From NCBI GenBank assembly GCA_029289325.1, contig JARFTV010000021.1:1-64000 (forward strand): 64,000 bases of DNA, given 5' to 3'. The notes under the pieces are model-generated. The model searched no databases, was not told where the DNA came from, and saw only the letters and a program-made list of their open reading frames with translations. This DNA comes from Alphaproteobacteria bacterium. Lineage in GTDB: Bacteria; Pseudomonadota; Alphaproteobacteria; Rhodobacterales; Rhodobacteraceae. Shown here one piece after another: positions 46,178-60,710 of the stretch (position 1 is the first letter of the stretch; each line of letters begins with the position of its first letter). A program made the translations under genes and the position numbers.

Positions 46178-47965
46178 TCAGCTCGGCAGGACGAAGAACC
46201 AGTTGGCCCAAAGGACGACCGCCGCCCCCAGGATCAGCGCCAGGTAGGGCAGGACCCCAGCCTTGCGTTCCCCCAACTCGCCGTAGGGCAGGCCCAGGTC
46301 GTCATAGGCCTCTTTCGGGAACTTGCCGCCGTCCACGACGTAGTGGCGGTACCAGAACACGGGGAAGATGAGGGCGGCGAAGATCAGCCCCGACCACAGC
46401 GCATTCTCATAGCCCCAGACCTTGGCACCCGCGCCCAGGAACAGGGCGTTGACGAAGGCGAGGAAGGTGTTGAACCCGATCAACAGCGTCGGCGCCTTCC
46501 ACGGCCGCTCCATATGGGCACTGTCGATGCGGTGGATCCAGCCGGCGTTCAGGTTCAGGAAGTTGAACAGAATGTAACCGACGTTCGAGATCGCGAGCAC
46601 ATAGAAATTCCCGCCCGCATCCGACGCCAGTGCCAGCAGGAACACGTTGAAGGCCACATCCGTCCACATCGCCCGCCGCGGCGCGCCATGCTCGTTCACC
46701 GTACCCAGGAACTTGGGCAGCCAGCCATCGCGCGAGCCTTGGTAAAGCGTGCGCGACGAACCGGCCATCGCCGTCATGATGGCCAGGAACAGGGCAATGA
46801 TCATCAGGATCACGAAGATCTGCGTGATCACCGGACCACCGCCGATCATGTTGCCGAGAGCTTCGCCAACGCCGGTCCCCTCGACGATGCCGGGATCCTG
46901 CATCCCGACTTCGCCCAGCACGCCCTGGAACGAGAACGGGATCAGGAAGAAGAACACCATGCACAGGAGACCCGAGTAGAAGATCGCCCGGAAGGTGTCG
47001 CGCTTGGGGTCCTTCAGCTCGCGGGTGTAGCAGACCGCGGTCTCGAAGCCATAGGTGGACCAGGCCGCGATATACATGCCGCCGAGGAACAGGGTCCAGC
47101 CGCCGATGTTCCACTCACCGCTTTCCCCGGCGTTGGGCGGGACGATGTCGGTGACATTCATCCAGTTGATCGAGCCGGTCAGGATCGGCACCAAGCCCAC
47201 CAGCAACAGCGGAATCAGCACGATGATCGCCAGCCACTTCTGCGCAGAGGCGGTCGAGGCGATGCCCCGCTCCTGGATCGCCAGGATGATCAGCATCAGC
47301 GCCACCCCGATGATGAAGGTGGAGTTGAAGTGCAGCGTGCCAAGGCCGGGGACGGTCAGGGCAAAGGCCTCGTAGACCCGGAACCAGGGCGTCAGCGCGG
47401 AAACCCCGTCCGCCGCCGCGACCGCCTGGATCGCCTGCTCGGCCGTGACCCCGGCATTCGCGGCCATGTAGTCGACGACCGAGCTTGTCTCGGCCGTATA
47501 GCTGGCAATGTTCGCCGCCACCCAGTCCAGCACCGGCTGGCTTTCGGCCAGGGGAATCGGGAACAGCGCGTTCAGGATGTAGCCCGCCGCGATGGCGCAG
47601 CCCAGCGACAGCACCGGCGACCAGGCGAACCAGTTACACCAGACCGACAAGGGCGCGATCAGCTTGCCATAGCGCAGCCATGCGGTCGCACCATAGACGC
47701 TGGTCCCGCCCGACTTGTTGCCGAACATCCCCGCCATCTCGGCGTAGGTGAAGCTCTGCGAGAAGCCCATCAGCATCGACAGCATCCAGACCACGAAGGC
47801 ATATTGCCCCACGGTCCCCGCGATCCCGCCGATGGAGAACAGCACCAGCGGCGGCACGCCTGCCGCGACCCAGAAGGCCCCCTTCCAGCTGAGCGCCCGG
47901 ACCATCTGGCCCGAGCCGGGCCCAGGCGCGGCGGCCAGCGCACTTCCTCCGATTTCAGTCGTCAT
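46178..47965 (-). CDS. APC superfamily permease with a long extra loop
   Basis: 595 aa, about twelve membrane helices, longer than most APC carriers (450-500 aa). Family landmarks: FSIGGIAGTVGQYAFVVW, SFTYAEMAGMFGNKSGGTSVYG, YGFETAVCYTRELKDPKRDT and GSSRTLYQGSRDGWLP. Between helices near residues 137-212 is a hydrophilic, helical insertion (ESQPVLDWVAANIASYTAET and following). Inner membrane. Its place between dmm and tmm suggests uptake of a methylated amine, TMAO or a related amine. Substrate not provable from sequence. Confidence 0.82.
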   Translation of the reverse strand: MTTEIGGSALAAAPGPGSGQMVRALSWKGAFWVAAGVPPLVLFSIGGIAGTVGQYAFVVWMLSMLMGFSQSFTYAEMAGMFGNKSGGTSVYGATAWLRYGKLIAPLSVWCNWFAWSPVLSLGCAIAAGYILNALFPIPLAESQPVLDWVAANIASYTAETSSVVDYMAANAGVTAEQAIQAVAAADGVSALTPWFRVYEAFALTVPGLGTLHFNSTFIIGVALMLIILAIQERGIASTASAQKWLAIIVLIPLLLVGLVPILTGSINWMNVTDIVPPNAGESGEWNIGGWTLFLGGMYIAAWSTYGFETAVCYTRELKDPKRDTFRAIFYSGLLCMVFFFLIPFSFQGVLGEVGMQDPGIVEGTGVGEALGNMIGGGPVITQIFVILMIIALFLAIMTAMAGSSRTLYQGSRDGWLPKFLGTVNEHGAPRRAMWTDVAFNVFLLALASDAGGNFYVLAISNVGYILFNFLNLNAGWIHRIDSAHMERPWKAPTLLIGFNTFLAFVNALFLGAGAKVWGYENALWSGLIFAALIFPVFWYRHYVVDGGKFPKEAYDDLGLPYGELGERKAGVLPYLALILGAAVVLWANWFFVLPS

Positions 47966-52154: not shown

Positions 52155-53462
52155 TCAGATGTCCAGCGTGTTCTGGGTTTCCCAGGCCGAGAAGTGGCTG
52201 CAATAGTCGTTCCACTCCTTGTGCTTGAGCTTCAGATAGGCGGACGAGAATTCCTCGCCCATCATCGCCTTCAGGGTCTTGTCCTTGTCGAACTCGCGCA
52301 GCGCGTCCAGCAGGTTCAAGGGCAGCTTCGGCGCGTTCTTCACCGTATGGCCCATCTGGTACATGTCGATATCGTAGCGACGGCCCGGATCTGCCTTGGT
52401 GCGGACCCCGTCCAGACCGGCTGCGAGGATCACCGCCTGCATCAGGTAGGGGTTTGCCGCGCCGTCGGGCAGGCGCAGCTCGAACCGACCCGGACCCGGC
52501 ACGCGGACCATGTGGGTCCGGTTGTTGCCGGTCCAGGTCACCGTGTTCGGTGCCCAGGTCGCGCCCGAGGACGTGCGCGGCGCGTTGATCCGCTTGTAGC
52601 TGTTGACCGTCGGGTTGCAGATCGCCGCCAGTGCGCTGGCATGCTTCATGATCCCGCCCAGGAAATGCCGGCCCTGGTCGGACAGCGACAGCTCTTTCGA
52701 CGGGTCCGAGAAGGCGTTCTTCGTCCCATCCAGCGTCCAGACCGAGATATGCGCGTGGCAACCCGAGCCGGTCAGACCCTTGAACGGCTTCGGCATGAAG
52801 GTCGCCCGCAGGCCGTGCTTTTCCGCAATCGACTTCATCATGAACTTGAAGAAGCTGTGCTTGTCGGCCGTGGCCAGCACATCGTCGTACTTCCAGTTCA
52901 TCTCATACTGGCCGGTCGCGTCCTCGTGGTCGTTCTGGTAGGCCTCCCAGCCCAGATCGAGCATGTAGTCGCAAACCTCGGCGATGCAGTCATACTGCCG
53001 CATCATCGCCTGCTGGTCGTAGCAGGGCTTCTCGGCGTTGTCGTAGGGGTCTGCGATCTTGTCGCCCTGCGGGGTCAGAAGGAAGAACTCCGGCTCCACC
53101 CCCGTCTTGACGCGCAGGCCATCCTTCGCCGCCTCATCGACCAGCCGACGCAGCACATTGCGCGGGGCCTGGGCAAGGGGCTGCTCTTCCATCACGCAGT
53201 TCGAGGCGACCCAGGCCACCTCTTTCTTCCAGGGCAACTGGATCGCCGCCTCGGGATCGGGCACCGCCATCATGTCGGGGTGCGCCGGGGTCAGGTCCAG
53301 CCAGGTCGCAAAGCCCGCGAAGCCGGCACCATCCACCGCCATGTCGTTGATCGCTTGCGTGGGCACAAGTTTTGCCCGCTGGCCACCGAAAAGGTCGGTG
53401 TAGGAAACCATGAAATACTTGACGCCTTTTTCCTTTGCCCAGTTGGCAAGGTCCTTAGCCAT
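52155..53462 (-). CDS. gmaS: Gamma-glutamylmethylamide synthetase (type III glutamine-synthetase-like)
   Basis: 435 aa. ATP-dependent ligation of methylamine to glutamate, the entry step of the N-methylglutamate pathway. GS fold markers: VEPEFFLL (metal site), GSGCHAHISVW, NPTVNSYKRINAP (ATP/glutamate region) and RFELRLPDGAANPYL. ATG 53462 follows AGGGAG. The gene comes after mgsABC, separated by a hairpin at the mgsC stop. Context makes GmaS more likely than glutamine synthetase III or glutamate-putrescine ligase. Confidence 0.92.
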   Translation of the reverse strand: MAKDLANWAKEKGVKYFMVSYTDLFGGQRAKLVPTQAINDMAVDGAGFAGFATWLDLTPAHPDMMAVPDPEAAIQLPWKKEVAWVASNCVMEEQPLAQAPRNVLRRLVDEAAKDGLRVKTGVEPEFFLLTPQGDKIADPYDNAEKPCYDQQAMMRQYDCIAEVCDYMLDLGWEAYQNDHEDATGQYEMNWKYDDVLATADKHSFFKFMMKSIAEKHGLRATFMPKPFKGLTGSGCHAHISVWTLDGTKNAFSDPSKELSLSDQGRHFLGGIMKHASALAAICNPTVNSYKRINAPRTSSGATWAPNTVTWTGNNRTHMVRVPGPGRFELRLPDGAANPYLMQAVILAAGLDGVRTKADPGRRYDIDMYQMGHTVKNAPKLPLNLLDALREFDKDKTLKAMMGEEFSSAYLKLKHKEWNDYCSHFSAWETQNTLDI

Positions 53463-53506
53463 CACTGTAACTCCCTGAGTCTTTTCTTGTGTGTTTGAGA
53501 GGGGGA

Positions 53507-53530
53507 AACGGCGGCTTAAAAGCCGCCGTT
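53507..53530 (-). promoter_or_regulatory. Perfect hairpin spanning the mgsC stop codon
   Basis: AACGGCGGCTT and its exact complement with 2 nt between, enclosing the TAA of mgsC. On the minus strand it is followed by TCCCCCTC. It may attenuate or process the mgsABC-gmaS mRNA. Confidence 0.55.
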
Positions 53531-54844
53531 CCGTCCCGGTATCCAGTTGGTGCCAGCCAGCGGAACCCCCGCCATCGCCGCCGCCTCGATGGTCAGCGAG
53601 CACAGATCCTCGGGTTCCAGGTTGTGCAGGTGATTCTTGCCACAGGCCCGCGCGATTGTCTGCGCCTCCAGTGTCATCACCTTGAGATAGTTCTTCAGGC
53701 GACGGCCACCCAGCACCGGATCGAAGCGCTTGAAGAGCTCCGGGTCCTGCGTGGTGATCCCGGCCGGGTCCCGGCCCTCATGCCAGTCGTCATAGGCATC
53801 CGCCGTGGTGCCAAGCTTCTGGTATTCCTCTTCGTAGGCCGGATCGTTGTCGCCAAGCGCGATCAGCGCCGCGGTCCCGATCGCCACCGCATCGGCGCCC
53901 AGAGCCATGGCCTTGGCCACGTCCGCGCCGGTACGGATACCACCCGAGACGATCAGCTGCACCTTCCGGTGCATCCCGAGGTCCTGCAGCGCCTTCACCG
54001 CCTGCGGGATACAGGCCAGGATCGGCATCCCGACATGCTCGATGAACACGTCCTGCGTCGCCGCCGTGCCGCCCTGCATGCCGTCCAGCACCACCACATC
54101 CGCGCCGGCCTTCACCGCCAGGGCGGTGTCATAGTAGGGGCGTGCGCCGCCAACCTTGACGTAGATCGGCTTTTCCCAATCGGTGATCTCGCGCAGCTCC
54201 ATGATCTTGATTTCCAGATCATCGGGGCCGGTCCAGTCCGGGTGACGGCAAGCCGAGCGCTGGTCGATCCCCTTGGGCAGGTTGCGCATCATCGCCACGC
54301 GGTCGCTGATCTTCTGGCCCAGAAGCATCCCGCCGCCGCCCGGCTTCGCGCCCTGGCCGACCACGACCTCGATCGCATCGGCGCGGCGCAGGTCATCGGG
54401 GTTCATCCCGTACCGGCTGGGCAGGTATTGATAGACCAGCGTCTTGGAGTGTCCGCGCTCTTCCTCGGTCATCCCGCCGTCGCCGGTGGTGGTCGAGGTT
54501 CCGGCTTCCGTTGCTCCACGGCCCAGGGCTTCCTTCGCCGGGCCGGAGAGCGCGCCAAAGCTCATCCCTGCGATGGTGATCGGGATGTCCAGGTGGATCG
54601 GCTTCTTGGCGAAACGGGTGCCAAGCCAGACATCCGTCGCACATTTCTCGCGGTAGCCTTCCAGCGGATAGCGGCTGATCGAGGCGCCAAGGAACAGCAG
54701 GTCATCGAAATGCGGCAGGTGCCGCTTCGTGCCGCCGCCGCGGATGTCGTAGATGCCAGAGGCTGCCGCGCGGCGGATCTCGGCGTTGATCGCCGGCGTG
54801 AAGGTGGCCGAGTAGCGGGGCGGGGTTTTCGGGAATTCGGTCAT
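53516..54844 (-). CDS. mgsC: N-methylglutamate synthase, FMN-binding glutamate-synthase-like subunit
   Basis: 442 aa, the FMN-binding domain of glutamate synthase as a separate protein. Markers: ITIAGMSFGALSGPAKEALGRGA, GQGAKPGGGGMLLGQKIS, IYVKVGGARPYYDTALAV, VVVLDGMQGGTAATQD and IVSGGIRTGADVAKAMALGA (read in parts). With MgsA and MgsB it converts gamma-glutamylmethylamide or methylamine plus glutamate to N-methylglutamate. Ends 53 bp before gmaS. Confidence 0.9.
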   Translation of the reverse strand: MTEFPKTPPRYSATFTPAINAEIRRAAASGIYDIRGGGTKRHLPHFDDLLFLGASISRYPLEGYREKCATDVWLGTRFAKKPIHLDIPITIAGMSFGALSGPAKEALGRGATEAGTSTTTGDGGMTEEERGHSKTLVYQYLPSRYGMNPDDLRRADAIEVVVGQGAKPGGGGMLLGQKISDRVAMMRNLPKGIDQRSACRHPDWTGPDDLEIKIMELREITDWEKPIYVKVGGARPYYDTALAVKAGADVVVLDGMQGGTAATQDVFIEHVGMPILACIPQAVKALQDLGMHRKVQLIVSGGIRTGADVAKAMALGADAVAIGTAALIALGDNDPAYEEEYQKLGTTADAYDDWHEGRDPAGITTQDPELFKRFDPVLGGRRLKNYLKVMTLEAQTIARACGKNHLHNLEPEDLCSLTIEAAAMAGVPLAGTNWIPGRNGGF

Positions 54845-54853
54845 TCCATTGCC

Positions 54854-55543
54854 TCAATAGGCCGACGCATTGTCGATGTTGAAGTTGTAAAGCTTCCGGG
54901 CCGAGCCATAGCGGCGGAACTCTTCCGGCTTGGCCTTTCCGTCGGCCTCGCCCTTCCGCAAAAGCTCTTCCAGCAGGGAATAGTGCTCGTCCCGCATCTC
55001 TTTCTCGATGCAGTCCGCGCCCAGCGACTTGACGCTGCCGCGGACGAAAAGCCGCGCCTCATACAGGGAGTCGCCCAGCGCGTCGCCCGCATCGCCCAGC
55101 ACGACAAGGTTGCCGGACTGAGCCATGAAGGCTGACATGTGCCCGATCGAGCCATGGACCACGATGTCGATGCCCTTCATCGAGACGCCGCAGCGCGAAG
55201 CCGCATTGCCCTTGATCACCAGAAGCCCGCCACGCCCGGTGGCCCCGGCATACTGGCTGGCGTTGCCTTCGACGATGACGGTGCCCGACATCATGTTCTC
55301 GGCCACGCCCGGCCCGGCGGAACCCTTGATGTGGATCGTCGCGTGCTTGTTCATGCCCGCGCAGTAATAGCCCGTGGACCCGTGCACGGTGATGCTCACC
55401 GGCGCGTCCACCCCGGCGGCGATGGCATGGGCGCCCTTGGGGTTGATGACCTCCCAATCGGTCATGTTGGTCTGGCCCTTCAGCGCATGCAGCGCCGAGT
55501 TGAGCGCCCGCAGGCCCTCTTTGCCCAGATCGAAACTCTGCAT
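54854..55543 (-). CDS. mgsB: N-methylglutamate synthase, GXGXG-domain subunit
   Basis: 229 aa, a free-standing glutamate synthase C-terminal beta-helix domain with its repeated G-x-x-G-x-x-x-G pattern: ITVHGSTGYYCAGMNKHATI, IHIKGSAGPGVAENM, VIVEGNASQYAGATGRGG and IVVHGSIGHMSAFMAQ. Structural partner that links the amidotransferase and FMN subunits. Begins 4 bp after the mgsA stop. ATG 55543 fits the family start MQSFDLGKEGLR. Confidence 0.9.
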   Translation of the reverse strand: MQSFDLGKEGLRALNSALHALKGQTNMTDWEVINPKGAHAIAAGVDAPVSITVHGSTGYYCAGMNKHATIHIKGSAGPGVAENMMSGTVIVEGNASQYAGATGRGGLLVIKGNAASRCGVSMKGIDIVVHGSIGHMSAFMAQSGNLVVLGDAGDALGDSLYEARLFVRGSVKSLGADCIEKEMRDEHYSLLEELLRKGEADGKAKPEEFRRYGSARKLYNFNIDNASAY

Positions 55544-55547
55544 CGTC

Positions 55548-56444
55548 TCAACGCTCCCAGAAATAGACGGTGGCGGGCTCGGGCTCCCAGACGCGGGCAT
55601 TCTCGATGCCCGGCAGGTTGACCAGCGCCCGATATTCCGACCCGAAGGCCACGTATTCGTCGGTTTCGGCCATGACGGCCGGCTTGCAGGCGATCGGGTC
55701 GCGAACGACGCCGAAGCCGTTCTTGGTGCCGACGACGAAGGTGTAGAACCCGTCCAGGTCTTCCAGCCCCGATTCCAGCGCCGTGCCCAGATCCTCGCCC
55801 TCTTTCAGCTTCTGGCTGACATAGGCGGCGGCGACCTCGGTGTCGTTCTGGGTCTCGAAGGTCATGCCCTTGCGGATCAGCTCGCGCCGCAACCCGTTGT
55901 GGTTCGACAAGCTGCCATTGTGCACGAGGCACTGGTCCGGCCCGGTCGAGAACGGGTGCGCGCCCATCGTGGTCACCGCTGATTCGGTCGCCATCCGGGT
56001 GTGGCCGATGCCGTGGGTGCCCTTCATCTTGGCCACCTCGAAACGGGCGGCAACGTCCTTGGGCAGGCCGACTTCCTTGAAGATCTCGATCGCGTCGCCA
56101 GCGCTCATCACCTTCACGCCGGGGCGCAGATGCGCCAGAGCCGAACGGGCGGCATCCATCTGGTCCAGCGGAACCTCAAGCACCGCATGGGTGGACTTTA
56201 TCTTCATCGTGACCGGCTGGCCGATGGCAGAGTGCAGCTCGCCATCCAGATCCTTGAAGTCCTTGGCGGGTTCCGAGGACTGGATGGTGATCTTCCCCAG
56301 CCCGTCCTTCGCCCCGCCATAGATCGCGATCCCGGCACTGTCGGGGCCGCGGTCTGTCATGGTGATCAGCATGTCTGTCAGCAATTCGCCCAGCCGGGGT
56401 TCCAGCTTGGGATCCTTCAGGAACAGTCCAACGATGCCGCACAT
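55548..56444 (-). CDS. mgsA: N-methylglutamate synthase, class II glutamine amidotransferase subunit
   Basis: 298 aa Ntn-type amidotransferase with catalytic Cys2 directly after the initiator Met (MCGIVGLF), and the MTDRGPDSAGIAIY, GIGHTRMATESAVT and LVHNGSLSNHNGLRRELI blocks. Releases the methylamine group from gamma-glutamylmethylamide for transfer in the complex. First gene of mgsABC-gmaS. GGAGAGACG precedes the ATG. Divergent from the small-membrane-protein operon. Confidence 0.92.
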   Translation of the reverse strand: MCGIVGLFLKDPKLEPRLGELLTDMLITMTDRGPDSAGIAIYGGAKDGLGKITIQSSEPAKDFKDLDGELHSAIGQPVTMKIKSTHAVLEVPLDQMDAARSALAHLRPGVKVMSAGDAIEIFKEVGLPKDVAARFEVAKMKGTHGIGHTRMATESAVTTMGAHPFSTGPDQCLVHNGSLSNHNGLRRELIRKGMTFETQNDTEVAAAYVSQKLKEGEDLGTALESGLEDLDGFYTFVVGTKNGFGVVRDPIACKPAVMAETDEYVAFGSEYRALVNLPGIENARVWEPEPATVYFWER

Positions 56445-56683
56445 GGATTCGTCTCTCCTTTGCGTGATTGGGATGACGCTAGCATCCCATCGTACTCCTA
56501 TCAACTGGTAAGAAACTTTTTTTCACCTGACGGGAAATATCCCCTGTCTGCCGCGAAAATGGGCACTTTTTCTTGACAGAGTGTCGCAGGTCGCTTTCCC
56601 TGCGGAAAACAAATTTGCCGCAGAGGGAAAGACGTCGGGCTGCGTCTTGGGGGCGGCGAACAATCAGCCCAGGGAGGAAATCT
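56445..56683. promoter_or_regulatory. Divergent control region between mgsABC and the small-protein/APC operon
   Basis: 239 bp, unusually A/T-rich. It contains AAGAAA-ctttt-TTTCAC (56510-56526) and TTTCC-ctgc-GGAAA (56595-56608). A larger near-palindrome runs from CTTTCCCTGCGG (56594) to CCGCAGAGGGAAAG (ending 56631). A strong AGGGAGG precedes the GTG start at 56684. Likely target of the XRE-cupin regulator; inferred. Confidence 0.5.
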
Positions 56684-56971
56684 GTGACAGACCTTAATCG
56701 GCGGATTGAGGCGATGCACAAACGCGACGTGCTGGTGGCATGGGCGTTCGTGATCGGCCTCTGGTTTGCGGTGATCTTCGTGGCGATCGCCACCTGGAAC
56801 CTGGCACCCAACTCAACGGCCCGGACCATCCTGCTGGTCGGCGGGGCGGTAGTGCTTCTGTTCAACACTGCTGCGATCCTGGCGATGCTGCGCCATTACC
56901 GCGAAGACCGCGACTTCATGTACGGCATCGACATCAAGTTCCTTGACGAAGCCCGCGGGCGGAGGGGGTGA
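56684..56971 (+). CDS. Small membrane protein, first of APC-linked operon
   Basis: 95 aa. GTG start supported by AGGGAGG seven nt upstream. Two membrane helices (VLVAWAFVIGLWFAVIFVAI and ILLVGGAVVLLFNTAAILAM) with short charged ends (N-terminal DLNRRIEAMHKRD, C-terminal RHYREDRDFMYGIDIKFLDE). No family recognised. The stop is two bases before the next ATG. Probably a small subunit or chaperone of the permease three genes downstream; inferred from the operon only. Confidence 0.75.
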   Translation: MTDLNRRIEAMHKRDVLVAWAFVIGLWFAVIFVAIATWNLAPNSTARTILLVGGAVVLLFNTAAILAMLRHYREDRDFMYGIDIKFLDEARGRRG

Positions 56972-56973
56972 CG

Positions 56974-57351
56974 ATGGCGCATTACACTCCCCCGAAACAG
57001 GGCAAGGCCAGCCAGCTGTTCGACGTGGTCGTGCTGGTGGTGCTGACCATCGGAGCCCTGTTCGTGCCGCTCTGGCTGAACATGGCGGGCGCGGCCAAAT
57101 CGGTTGCCAACCCGATCGCGGACCCGACCTGGGAAGCCTTGGGCCAGAATGCCGCGCAAGCCGCGAAATACGAGGCCCTCGGCTTCACGCCCGAGACCGC
57201 GCATGACCTGATCCTCGCCCGGTTCGACTACAGCTTCTCGATCGGCGCGCTGCTCACGATGATCGTGGTCATCGTGCTGTACTATTTCCTGATCCTGCGG
57301 TTCTCGGAAGTCGAGTACCGCGAGGTCATCTCTGAGAAATTCGGCAAGTAG
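56974..57351 (+). CDS. Small membrane protein, second of APC-linked operon
   Basis: 125 aa. ATG preceded by GGAGGGGG; a GTG two codons earlier overlaps the previous stop and is an alternative. Two membrane helices (VVVLVVLTIGALFVPLWLNM; FSIGALLTMIVVIVLYYFLI) enclose a ~50-residue soluble loop rich in Ala, Asn and Asp (KSVANPIADPTWEALGQNAA). The C-terminus RFSEVEYREVISEKFGK is charged and presumably cytoplasmic. No family recognised. Conserved membrane topology and spacing argue that it is a real gene. Confidence 0.75.
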   Translation: MAHYTPPKQGKASQLFDVVVLVVLTIGALFVPLWLNMAGAAKSVANPIADPTWEALGQNAAQAAKYEALGFTPETAHDLILARFDYSFSIGALLTMIVVIVLYYFLILRFSEVEYREVISEKFGK

Positions 57352-57360
57352 GAGGCGACC

Positions 57361-57531
57361 TTGGAACTCTGGAACTACATCGAATACGGGGCCTGGGCGC
57401 TGGCGGCGCTGCTTGGCCTGCACATGCTGGTGGACTGGCTGAAGACCGACAGCACCTATGACGAAGACGTCCTGATCTCCTCTCGCGAAGGCGAGCTCGA
57501 GGCCATGGCCGAAGAACACAAGGTGCACTGA
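57361..57531 (+). CDS. 56-aa single-helix membrane protein, third of APC-linked operon
   Basis: TTG start (57361) with GGAGG eight nt upstream. Reads MELWNYIEYGAWALAALLGL, then HMLVDWLKTDSTYDEDVLIS and SREGELEAMAEEHKVH. One membrane helix near the N-terminus and an acidic soluble tail. The TGA overlaps the ATG of the permease gene (TGATG), so the two are translationally coupled. Easily missed by gene finders because of its length and TTG start. Confidence 0.7.
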   Translation: MELWNYIEYGAWALAALLGLHMLVDWLKTDSTYDEDVLISSREGELEAMAEEHKVH

Positions 57532-58967
57532 TGGCCGACGTAGATATCACCTCGCAAACCATGGACGGCATGGGGCCCCACGGCACCAAGGTCGGCCTTC
57601 TCCGCGTGCTCGGCCCGGCCCATGTCTGGGCGCTTGGCGTGGGCATCGTCCTTGTGGGCGAATACATGGGCTGGAACTTCTCGGTGGGAAAGGGCGGCGC
57701 CTATGCCGCGCTGATCGCCTGCTGGTTCGCGGGAATCCTCTATTCCTGCGTCGCCATGATCGATTCGGAGGTCACTTCGACCGTCGCATCGGCCGGTGGC
57801 CAGTATACCCAGGCCAAGCACATCATCGGGCCGCTGATGGCCTTCAACGTCGGCCTCTACCTCGTCTTCGCCTATACGATGCTGGAAGCGGCCAACGCGA
57901 TCACTGCGGGTTACCTCTTCTCGGTCGTGGCGACGATGACAGGCTATTCCGGCGAGCTTGACCAGCGCCCGTTCATCATCCTGGTCATCACCTTCCTGGC
58001 CTGGCTGAACTATCGCGGCGTTCTGGCGACGCTGACCTTCAACCTGGTCATCACCGCCGTCGCCTTCAGCGCGATCATCATCCTGTTCCTCTCGACCTCG
58101 GGCATCCTGGGCGGCGGGATCATGGATCATGCCGCGCTGTTCGAGGGGCATGAGCTTCCCTACGGCTGGGTCGGCGTCCTTGCCGCGATGCACTTCGGCC
58201 TGTGGTACTACCTCGGCATCGAGGGCACGACGCAGGCGGCCGAAGAGGTCCGCTCGCCTGCCCGTTCGCTGCCCTTCGGGACGCTGGCCGGGATCATGAC
58301 GCTGCTCATCGCCGCGACCCTGACCTGGTATGTCTGCTCGGGCATCCTCCCCTGGGAATTCCTGGGCGACGGGGTGGACGGGGCCGTGGCACCGCTCTTC
58401 TCGGCGGCGCAGCTCTCGGGTTCCATGGCGCTTGTCTGGCTTCTCGGCTTCGGGACGCTCTTCGCGACCCTCGCCAGCGCCAACGGCTGCATTAACGACG
58501 CCTCGCGGGCCTGGTTCGCCATGGGCCGCGACAAGTATCTGCCCGGCTGGTTCGGCGCGGTCCATCCCAAGTACCGCACCCCCTACCGGGCGATCATCTT
58601 CCTGGTTCCGATCGCGCTGATCTTCGCTCTTGGCGCGCCTTTGGACCAGGTGATCACCTTCTCGATCCTCTCCGGCCTTCTGGGCTATACGTTCATGCCG
58701 CTCAACATCATCCTGTTCCGCCGCAAATGGCCGCTGGACACGATCAAGCGCGGCTATGAGCACCCGTTCCACCCGATCCCCGCGATTGCGCTTCTCACCC
58801 TGTGCGGCGTGACCTTCTTCGCGGTGTTCCTGGGCTACGGGACCCAGCTGGTGGCGATGATCGGCTTCTACATCATCGTGTCGCTCTGGTTCCACTTCTG
58901 GCGCTACCGCTTCGTGAACCGGGGGGCGCAGTTCACCATGCCCTGGCCGAAGCCTCGGGGCTACTAA
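57531..58967 (+). CDS. APC superfamily amine/amino-acid permease
   Basis: 478 aa, about twelve membrane helices. Family blocks: GLLRVLGPAHVWALGVGIVLVGEYMGWNF (read in parts), AGGQYTQAKHIIGPLMAF, WYYLGIEGTTQAAEEVRSPARSLPFG and FATLASANGCINDASRAWFAMGRDKYLP. Resembles ethanolamine-type permeases. Located between mgs and mgd genes with three small membrane proteins, so it probably imports methylamine, N-methylglutamate or a related amine. Substrate inferred. Confidence 0.85.
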   Translation: MADVDITSQTMDGMGPHGTKVGLLRVLGPAHVWALGVGIVLVGEYMGWNFSVGKGGAYAALIACWFAGILYSCVAMIDSEVTSTVASAGGQYTQAKHIIGPLMAFNVGLYLVFAYTMLEAANAITAGYLFSVVATMTGYSGELDQRPFIILVITFLAWLNYRGVLATLTFNLVITAVAFSAIIILFLSTSGILGGGIMDHAALFEGHELPYGWVGVLAAMHFGLWYYLGIEGTTQAAEEVRSPARSLPFGTLAGIMTLLIAATLTWYVCSGILPWEFLGDGVDGAVAPLFSAAQLSGSMALVWLLGFGTLFATLASANGCINDASRAWFAMGRDKYLPGWFGAVHPKYRTPYRAIIFLVPIALIFALGAPLDQVITFSILSGLLGYTFMPLNIILFRRKWPLDTIKRGYEHPFHPIPAIALLTLCGVTFFAVFLGYGTQLVAMIGFYIIVSLWFHFWRYRFVNRGAQFTMPWPKPRGY

Positions 58968-58974
58968 GGCAAAG

Positions 58975-59000
58975 GGCCCGCGCCTTCCGGGGCGCGGGCC
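58975..59000 (+). terminator. Hairpin after the APC permease
   Basis: A 10-bp GC stem (GGCCCGCGCC and complement, 6-nt loop) begins 8 nt after the stop. AATCC follows rather than a T-run, so it may be a weak terminator or a stability element. Confidence 0.55.
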
Positions 59001-59009
59001 AATCCCAGC

Positions 59010-59684
59010 ATGTCCCCGCTCATCCCCCTCGGCCTCGCCCTCGCCTGTCTCGGCCTCTGGCTCGGCTACCGCCTTTTCACTGAATCCCGGATCCGCACCG
59101 CCAGCCGCGCCGCCTATTTCGACGCGGTCAAACCCCTGTTCGAGGGCGGCGAGACGCGGCAGCAACCCACGGGCTTCCCACGGATGACCGGCCGCCGCGA
59201 CGGCCTTGCCTTCGATCTGCAGGCCGTCCCCGACATGCTGACCTTCCGCAAGCTCCCCGCGCTCTGGGTCCTCGTCACCCTGCCCGAGCCCCTGCCGCTT
59301 GACGCCACGCTCGACCTGATGGCGCGGCCTTCGGGGAATGAGCCCTTCACGAAATTCTCCACCCTGCCGCAGTCGCTGCCCACGCCGCCCGAACTGCCGA
59401 AAGAGGTGGCCATCCGCAGCGACGACGCCAGCCGCATCCCGCCGCCGGACCTGATCGCTCGCCATGCGCCGCTTTTCCAGAACCCGCGGGTGAAGGAACT
59501 GGTCCTTTCGCCAAAGGGCTTGCGTATCGTGATCCTGGCCGAAGAGGCCGACCGTGGCCGCTTCCTCATCTTCCGCGAGGCCGAGATGGGCCGAACCCCG
59601 CTTTCGCCGCAGCGGCTTGAACCGATCCTCGACAGTCTGGCCGCCCTGCGCGAGGATGTGCTGACCCTGACGGAGCGCCGATGA
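59010..59684 (+). CDS. Membrane-anchored hypothetical protein
   Basis: 224 aa. One N-terminal membrane helix (SPLIPLGLALACLGLWLGYRLF) and a soluble domain beginning around residue 30 (YFDAVKPLFEGGETRQQPTG, later LALWVLVTLPEPLPLDATLD-like strands). A C-terminal GRFLIFREAEMGRTPLSPQRLEPILDSL resembles other alphaproteobacterial hypotheticals. No function recognised. Overlaps the next gene by 4 bp (ATGA). Confidence 0.65.
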   Translation: MSPLIPLGLALACLGLWLGYRLFTESRIRTASRAAYFDAVKPLFEGGETRQQPTGFPRMTGRRDGLAFDLQAVPDMLTFRKLPALWVLVTLPEPLPLDATLDLMARPSGNEPFTKFSTLPQSLPTPPELPKEVAIRSDDASRIPPPDLIARHAPLFQNPRVKELVLSPKGLRIVILAEEADRGRFLIFREAEMGRTPLSPQRLEPILDSLAALREDVLTLTERR

Positions 59685-59956
59685 AACCGCCACCGAACCC
59701 GCATCTCGTCCTCGCCGTGGCGCTGCTTCTGCCCGGGATGGGCCAGGTGCTCAACCGTCAGCCGGTGCGCGGGCTGATCTTCGTCTGCTTTGCCGTGCTG
59801 CTGGGGGGCTTCACCCTGAAGACGGCCGCGGCGGACGTGTCCTTCGTGGGCAAGGTCTCTGGCGCGCTCTTCGTCTGGGCGATGGCACTCCTCGACGCCT
59901 ACCGGACCGCCCGCATCCGCCGCGCCGTATGGGATCACCGCAACGCTCCTCGATGA
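59681..59956 (+). CDS. Small integral membrane protein
   Basis: 91 aa. Two membrane helices. The opening LVLAVALLLPGMGQVLNRQPVRGLIF has the P-G-x-G-Q-x-x-N-x-Q/G pattern seen in TM2-like and related membrane proteins. Its partner is the preceding gene (4-bp overlap). Converges with the XRE-cupin gene. Function unknown. Confidence 0.65.
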   Translation: MKPPPNPHLVLAVALLLPGMGQVLNRQPVRGLIFVCFAVLLGGFTLKTAAADVSFVGKVSGALFVWAMALLDAYRTARIRRAVWDHRNAPR

Positions 59957-60050: not shown

Positions 60051-60710
60051 TCACCCCTGCGGATAGGCGATCACAGACAGATACCGCGCTGGCAGCTTGA
60101 CCAGCCCCTCCGGCCCGTGTGGTGCATCCGCGTCAAAGAACAGGCTGTCCCCCGCCTTCAGCGGATAGACCTGGTCGCCGTGGCGATAATCCACCTCGCC
60201 CTCCAGCATGAACAACAACTCCAGTCCGCCATGCTGGAAGGTCGGGAAGGTGTCGCTCTCGGTCGTCAGGGTGATCATGTAGGGCTCCACCACCACGCCC
60301 GAGTTGTTCGACCCGATATGCCCCAGCAGATGATACTGGTGTCCGGCCCTTGTCCCCCGCCGCTCGATCTCCAGATGCTCGCCCGCCTTCACATGCTGGG
60401 CCTCGCGCCGTTCTTCATAGCTCTTGAAGAAGGCCGTCACCGGGACCGAGAAAGCATGGCTCAACACCTGCAAGGTCGTCAGGCTGGGCGAGGTGTTGCC
60501 GTTCTCGATTTTCGACAGCATCCCGATCGACAGGCCGGTGACATTGGCAAGGTCCGCCACCGTCATCCCCTGCTGGCGACGGAAGTTGCGAACCTCGCGG
60601 CCGATGGCAGCTTCGAGGTTTCGCTCACTGATCTCGCGGACACGGTGCGGGTCCTGTTCGAACGCAGGCTTGCCGCGGGGAAGCGTTACGACGGCTTCGT
60701 CTTCGGACAT
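60051..60710 (-). CDS. XRE-family regulator with C-terminal cupin domain
   Basis: 219 aa. HTH region IGREVRNFRRQQGMTVADLA, NVTGLSIGMLSKIENGNTSP (residues ~35-75) followed by a cupin-2 effector domain (GGLELLFMLEGEVDYRHGDQ, YPLKAGDSLFFDADAPHG). Such proteins often regulate amine or amino-acid catabolism, as PuuR does. Placed between the mgs and mgd genes with a palindrome 24 bp before its own start, it is the best candidate regulator of the island. Confidence 0.9.
   Translation of the reverse strand: MSEDEAVVTLPRGKPAFEQDPHRVREISERNLEAAIGREVRNFRRQQGMTVADLANVTGLSIGMLSKIENGNTSPSLTTLQVLSHAFSVPVTAFFKSYEERREAQHVKAGEHLEIERRGTRAGHQYHLLGHIGSNNSGVVVEPYMITLTTESDTFPTFQHGGLELLFMLEGEVDYRHGDQVYPLKAGDSLFFDADAPHGPEGLVKLPARYLSVIAYPQG

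Follow-up and report, generated by a model that had tools for sequence, protein, structure and literature searches.

An APC-family permease gene in a methylated-amine island of an alphaproteobacterium of the family Rhodobacteraceae is preceded by three very short open reading frames (ORFs), which raises the question of whether the small products are partners of the carrier and, if so, what the assembly transports. The locus lies on contig JARFTV010000021.1 of assembly GCA_029289325.1, of which positions 1 to 64,000 were analyzed (64,000 nucleotides, here called the window). The first-pass annotation, made from this sequence alone, interpreted four genes as a possible multi-subunit amine transporter serving N-methylglutamate (NMG) metabolism. 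Our analysis showed that the unit consists of six genes, S1, S2, S3, APC, S5 and S6 (Table 1), and reaches position 59956. Together, the six genes probably encode a multi-component importer of an alkylammonium compound, most likely methylammonium, for the NMG pathway. The locus is now best read as encoding a multi-subunit amine transporter, whose physical complex, direction of transport, coupling ion and substrate are what we infer.

The close packing of the first four genes was borne out. S1 and S2 are separated by 2 bp and S2 and S3 by 9 bp, and the S3 stop overlaps the APC start by one base (TGATG). The start codons GTG, ATG and TTG of the three small genes were confirmed in the window, and GGAGG-type ribosome sites were located by eye 5' of S1, S2 and S3; by the same inspection, the ribosome site of APC, AAGGTG, is weaker. 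The first-pass annotation missed S5 and S6, as well as a universal stress protein (Usp) gene present in other genomes. S6 starts within the stop codon of S5, through an ATGA overlap that echoes the close spacing upstream. A four-gene unit was ruled out, as S5 and S6 are absent at contig ends only. The expectation that the 56-amino-acid (aa) gene S3 would fall beneath gene-finder limits did not hold in general, since in five of seven plasmid records every small partner is annotated as 'hypothetical protein'. Of the remaining two, which lack an S3 annotation, the Sinorhizobium meliloti record leaves S2 and S3 unannotated and the Paraburkholderia record has no annotated gene in the stretch. The only labels in the annotated records examined are 'hypothetical protein', 'amino acid permease' and 'APC family permease'.

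Table 1. The six-gene cassette, its putative expression elements and its neighbours (positions in the window)
Feature	Position	Strand	Start codon or basis
S1, 95 aa, two membrane segments, conserved charged C-terminal tail	56684..56971	+	GTG start
S2, 125 aa, two membrane helices flanking a predicted helical loop	56974..57351	+	ATG start
S3, 56 aa, one plausible short membrane segment and an acidic tail in which S-S-x-E-G is conserved	57361..57531	+	TTG start
APC-family permease, 478 aa, cassette core, TM1 motif GEYMGWN with Glu44	57531..58967	+	ATG start
S5, 224 aa, N-terminal membrane helix and folded alpha/beta domain, probably cytoplasmic	59010..59684	+	AlphaFold2, co-occurrence
S6, 91 aa, small membrane protein	59681..59956	+	Conservation, dN/dS
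TTGACANNNTGTC box 5' of S1, in the divergent mgsA-S1 intergenic region, possible promoter or operator	56573..56585	+	22-sequence alignment
10-bp G+C hairpin separating APC from S5, possibly a partial terminator or an attenuator	58975..59000	+	Genus alignment
mgsA-like glutamine amidotransferase (NMG synthase), divergent neighbour, start codon provisional	55548..56504	-	Pfam GATase_6/7
mgsB-like GXGXG protein (NMG synthase)	54854..55600	-	Pfam
mgsC-like Glu_synthase/FMN protein (NMG synthase), NMG marker in genome searches	53516..54844	-	Pfam
gmaS-like glutamine-synthetase-family protein	52155..53603	-	Pfam Gln-synt_C
XRE-cupin regulator	60051..60710	-	Pfam HTH_3 and Cupin_2

All six genes are under purifying selection. 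The median ratio of non-synonymous to synonymous substitution rates (dN/dS) across 23 loci of the window's genus was 0.16 for S1, 0.14 for S2, 0.25 for S3 (highest single value 0.64) and 0.08 for APC, and across 22 such loci it was 0.22 for S5 and 0.15 for S6. Together with the conservation described below, these ratios rule out chance ORFs. S3 starts with ATG in 23 of 23 relatives, which supports the TTG start in the window.

Gene order was compared across 138 loci, all located via APC. All six genes were found in the same order on one strand at 129 of these loci, and the nine loci without the full set all lie at contig ends. The genome scan, in which the best 80 of 495 confirmed APC relatives were used as loci, showed S2, S3 and APC at 80 loci, S1 and S5 at 79 and S6 at 77. 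Since the loci were found via APC, profile searches served as an independent test of co-occurrence, which covered S2 and S5. For each of these two profiles, the matches over 398 genomes were exactly the 14 genomes with APC (14/14), the genomic co-occurrence looked for in a multi-subunit transporter. A search with S1 within the window's own genome found it once.

The small ORFs are conserved in records titled as alpha-, beta- and gammaproteobacteria, and the gene order, which the first-pass annotation had proposed to follow through the Rhodobacteraceae, is kept well beyond that family. The plasmid protein search returned 22 records at 67–84% identity, with matches in Paracoccus, Aminobacter, Sinorhizobium, Pararhizobium, Rhizobium, Pseudohalocynthiibacter and Paraburkholderia. 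Titles among the best 80 of 495 relatives include Methylophaga, Methyloversatilis, Methylobacillus, Methylotenera, Methyloligella, Methyloceanibacter, Hyphomicrobium, Paraburkholderia and Roseovarius. It could be argued that the small ORFs are neighbours of the permease without functional connection, or are not genes, as they are short (one of them just 56 aa) and match no named family over its cut-off. The purifying selection, the exact co-occurrence of S2 and S5 with APC and the maintenance of gene order across bacterial classes make this very unlikely, and we give it next to no weight.

Two groups of records deviate in detail. In a Dongia-like group (L073:7283-7453, G356:C10:251585-252052), S2 is longer with a different spacing, and the profile matches it in two pieces. 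The APC of Rhizobium sp. RCAM05350 (L179) is unannotated and was matched in two pieces; it may be frameshifted in the record.

The link to NMG metabolism proposed in the first-pass annotation is supported by both neighbourhood and co-occurrence. The cassette is flanked in the window by divergent mgsABC-gmaS on one side and by an XRE-cupin regulator and a sarcosine-oxidase-like mgdC on the other; the names mgs, mgd, gmaS and dmm were assigned from domain and gene order, and a 194-aa ORF between the regulator and mgdC was taken as mgdD from position only. Genes of the Dmm type, one gene of the Amt family, a flavin monooxygenase gene and a second APC gene are located further upstream. With a rule of at least 40% identity and at least 50% query coverage in the fetched flanks, at least one NMG gene was found at 73 of 110 loci, or 71 of 108 without the doubles from two same-contig pairs (L073/L084 and L072/L144). 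Many of the other loci are from close relatives, so that the counts are non-independent. A relative of mgsA, mgsB or mgsC was present at 69 of the 73. The NMG genes are divergent, upstream or downstream relative to the cassette, depending on the locus, and with so variable an arrangement it becomes less likely that the association reflects hitch-hiking within a single inherited island.

Outside the window's genus, mgsC was found in 22 of 23 cassette genomes as compared to 6 of 23 cassette-free genomes (Fisher p 8e-7), the cassette-free genomes all being from the window's family, among the matches listed, and 13 of the 23 cassette genomes being from outside it. Within the family alone, the corresponding numbers were 9 of 10 and 6 of 23 (p 0.001). 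Within the genus (20 genomes), mgsC was found in 14 of 15 genomes with APC and in three of five without it, showing that the NMG pathway does not need the cassette. Among the genome-scan loci, 27 have no NMG gene nearby by the 40% rule. Of these, 22 were searched for mgsC, with L128 and L150 as positive controls, and 18 of the 22 genomes carry mgsC elsewhere at 71–87% identity. An NMG-only context was ruled out as universal, given the 37 of 110 loci without an NMG gene in the flanks and the genomes without a close mgsC. The NMG pathway takes monomethylamine (PMC5023235).

The permease belongs to the APC superfamily, with scores of 115.6 and 109 bits to Pfam AA_permease and AA_permease_2 against gathering cut-offs of 24.6 and 27. 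The best NCBIfam model was the ethanolamine permease TIGR00908, at 175.7 bits versus a cut-off of 381.75, and identity to 12 fetched ethanolamine-permease-like proteins was 24–27%. A search of the 1.5 kb flanking each of the 12 genes for these proteins detected none of the five small families at E 0.001. Judged by sequence, the cassette APC is a distinct relative of the ethanolamine permeases. All 81 cassette APCs have the motif GE(Y/F)MG(W/Y)N in transmembrane helix 1 (TM1). The frame G-x-(Y/F)-x-G-W is shared by all 12 ethanolamine-permease-like proteins, in the form SGx(Y/F)xGW(S/N), and an acid (Glu/Asp) occupies x in 9 of the 12 and in 9 of the 10 that exceed the TIGR00908 cut-off. In the alignment, GEYMGWN of the cassette stands, for example, against GEYFGWS or GDFAGWN, and IE/VE in TM6 is aligned with GIEG of the cassette. 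Glu44, Glu231 and Asp323 are invariant in the 81 cassette APCs and Glu119 is present in 79; Glu119 and Asp323 are additions relative to the ethanolamine permeases.

Sequence matches of the APC in the PDB were headed by GkApcT (6f34 and 5oqt, which we take to be GkApcT entries), and light chains of the SLC7 type, LAT1 for instance, were also among them. In GkApcT, the carboxylate of alanine is bound by two TM1 amides, those of Thr43 and Gly44 (PMC5803215). Because GkApcT binds a carboxylate there, an acid in this stretch would favour an ammonium group without carboxylate, and from the acidic TM1 motif we infer an ammonium-type substrate.

For the partner proteins, no Pfam or NCBIfam model scored over its cut-off with S1, S2, S3 or S5, and S6 displayed a weak sub-threshold likeness to DUF5683/DUF6677. 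Of the helix counts of two, two and one given for S1 to S3 in the first-pass annotation, the first two agree with the hydropathy profiles. S3 stayed under the cut-off, with a best 19-residue mean of 1.36; its 15-residue core reaches 1.83, and one short helix is plausible. The single-chain AlphaFold2 model of S2 has two long helices around a helical loop and is of modest confidence (predicted local distance difference test score, pLDDT, 81.7; predicted template modelling score, pTM, 0.43). S5, likewise predicted as a single chain, was modelled as a long N-terminal helix followed by a compact alpha/beta domain (pLDDT 94.8, pTM 0.89), which is probably located in the cytoplasm, judging from the positive residues after the helix. 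The best PDB fold match of S5 in Foldseek was TtfA (6t84; probability 0.99, E 3.9e-3, TM-scores 0.41/0.50), a weak match, and the viral fold search returned none for S5 at E 0.001.

At 31 of the 79 genome-scan loci with S5, APC and S5 are more than 250 bp apart and the space holds a Usp-like gene, as read by eye from translations. The Pfam Usp match was confirmed for three Usp-like proteins and for one APC-Usp frame (L131). APC and Usp form one open frame at two Methyloceanibacter loci (L131:9971-11812, L151:9956-11812). In the window itself, APC and S5 have no Usp gene between them.

In the importer that we favour, the APC protein would let a small organic cation, of which methylammonium is the likeliest, pass along a route coupled to protons or ions. 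S1 and S2, with two helices each, and S3, with one, would pack against the APC protein in the membrane, while S5 would anchor its folded cytoplasmic domain next to it. S6 would be a further membrane partner, and S5 and S6 together may stabilise or gate the carrier. The imported amine would feed gamma-glutamylmethylamide synthetase and N-methylglutamate synthase. A bolder proposal, which we advance tentatively and put somewhat short of an even chance, is that an APC-fold carrier functions solely in a dedicated hetero-oligomer, assembled from as many as six encoded parts and, in some lineages, Usp as well, and that methylammonium enters NMG-pathway bacteria mainly by this hitherto unrecognised route. 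If true, such an obligate hetero-oligomer would be a new architecture for the APC superfamily. The cassette offers a genetically tractable candidate for testing if a carrier of the APC fold may depend on several dedicated partners, and it gives a predicted role to five families of small proteins, of which four matched no known family over its cut-off.

Several observations weigh against the proposed importer. Because all 138 loci were found via APC, gene order alone cannot show an obligate link, and the independent co-occurrence test speaks for S2 and S5 only. S3 and APC form one open frame in a single Sinorhizobium meliloti record, which is 1 of the 138 loci, and in none of three other Sinorhizobium records. 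The acid position of TM1 is His in two of the ethanolamine-permease-like relatives below the cut-off and Ser in one member, and the alignment of Glu44 to GkApcT may be off by one or two residues. Four of the 73 NMG-flanked loci count only through relatives of gmaS or mgdC. Outside the genus, G076 (a 79% complete assembly) has the cassette without mgsC; within it, G002, G007 and G014 have mgsC without the cassette, and in G013, where APC (89%) lies at a contig edge, no mgsC reached the threshold applied. The searched cassette genomes L159, L156, L122 and L147 have no close mgsC. An Amt-family gene is also present in the window, and the Amt type has already been named as methylamine transporter in a review (PMC8292978).

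The same evidence can be read in other ways. The APC protein might move the amine alone, with the small proteins as assembly, stability or regulatory factors that act transiently or tune the carrier, like MgtS with GkApcT or TtfA with MmpL3. MgtS packs on TM5 of GkApcT, and protein made without MgtS showed less transport at similar initial rates (PMC5803215). S5 is built like TtfA, in which a single N-terminal helix is combined with a cytoplasmic C-terminal domain (PMC6593404), and among PDB entries its fold is matched best by TtfA; the hairpin between APC and S5-S6 could also reduce the expression of these two genes. The TtfA match is, however, weak by both E-value and TM-score, and five partners at 129 of 138 loci, with all nine gaps at contig ends, exceed what is expected of optional factors. 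We consider this account unlikely, while granting it real weight.

Whether methylammonium is the substrate can likewise be questioned. The cassette might handle another amine (ethanolamine, di- or trimethylamine), or export or exchange a product such as ammonium or N-methylglutamate, as the nearest named family of the APC is the ethanolamine permease, our rule places no NMG gene close to the cassette at 37 of 110 loci and four searched genomes lack a close mgsC. The low identity to ethanolamine permeases and the score far below the family cut-off argue against ethanolamine, and the strong association with mgsC, together with the use of monomethylamine by the NMG pathway itself (PMC5023235), argues for methylammonium, leaving a different cargo or direction as a minority possibility. 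A role as a membrane sensor (transceptor), reporting the amine to the NMG operons via S5, Usp or the XRE-cupin regulator, would account for the Usp-like gene at 31 of 79 loci, for the two single APC-Usp frames in Methyloceanibacter and for the XRE-cupin regulator relatives, with 40% identity or above, that flank the cassette at 26 of 110 loci. No signalling domain was found over the Pfam or NCBIfam cut-offs in S1 to S6, the window lacks Usp in the APC-S5 gap, and cassette and mgsC are apart in some genomes, all of which makes a sensor improbable.

The first-pass annotation took APC carriers to act normally on their own, a premise that has to be qualified. Light chains of the SLC7 type, LAT1 among them, are heteromeric: in the heteromeric amino acid transporters, an SLC7 light chain of the APC type is joined to an SLC3 heavy chain, a dedicated one-helix partner. 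The cassette differs from these in having several small partners and in that its largest soluble domain is predicted to be cytoplasmic; no SLC3-type heavy chain was found over the Pfam or NCBIfam cut-offs among S1 to S3, S5 and S6, the largest partner in the window being of 224 aa. GkApcT, a bacterial CAT-like APC, was crystallised with MgtS, and thus also offers a small one-helix protein packed on an APC carrier (PMC5803215). MgtS, however, came from the E. coli expression host and is not encoded with the carrier, and the substrate of GkApcT is an amino acid. TtfA resembles S5 in that one N-terminal helix and a cytoplasmic domain serve a transporter (PMC6593404), whereas that transporter is MmpL3, of the RND type, and the S5 fold alignment has only 8% identity. 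Amt in gmaS-mgsABC-amt operons is the named methylamine transporter beside NMG genes (PMC8292978), but belongs to a different family and is a single gene.

The open-licence literature searched yielded no description of the cassette, which does not imply its absence from print. The available portions of PMC5023235, PMC4543880, PMC9800807, PMC6794327, PMC13390433, PMC4109929, PMC8292978, PMC5803215 and PMC6593404 do not describe it. Methylamine-induced amino-acid permeases are reported in Methyloversatilis universalis FAM5 (PMC5023235) and could not be tied to the cassette APC. By the numbering in that article, mgdA comes next after mgsC in FAM5, whereas S1 follows mgsC in strain EHg5 (L128).

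Two candidate expression elements were found around the cassette. In an alignment of 22 upstream regions of the genus, window included, the TTGACA half of the TTGACANNNTGTC box is invariant and the TGTC half nearly so. The box has its sole exact match in the window at this position and might serve as a -35 element overlapped by an operator. Another operator candidate, the inverted repeat at 56594-56631, was rejected, as its pattern matched no relative tried. The hairpin between APC and S5 is perfectly paired, and 97.8% of cells are paired in 18 of 23 genus sequences, with a both-side change in one pair only. Four T follow 3' of it in several relatives, and it may set the level of S5-S6 below that of the carrier. 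The promoter scan reported no site, and the sole terminator-like site of the scan was this hairpin read on the minus strand.

A few minor observations concern neighbouring genes and individual records. The second APC permease of the island (595 aa, 46178-47965, minus strand) has a relative of at least 40% identity at 31 of 110 cassette loci. L156 and L122 have distant mgs/gmaS-like neighbours beside the cassette, which are divergent glutamine-amidotransferase, glutamate-synthase or glutamine-synthetase-like genes with 32–38% identity to mgs/gmaS of the window, and these possibly belong to another amine-glutamate pathway. Pelagic forms of the Methylopumilus group are described as being without the NMG pathway (PMC6794327). 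L136, a metagenome-assembled genome titled Candidatus Methylopumilus universalis, contains the cassette together with mgs/gmaS-like genes, and its label or the contig may be at fault.

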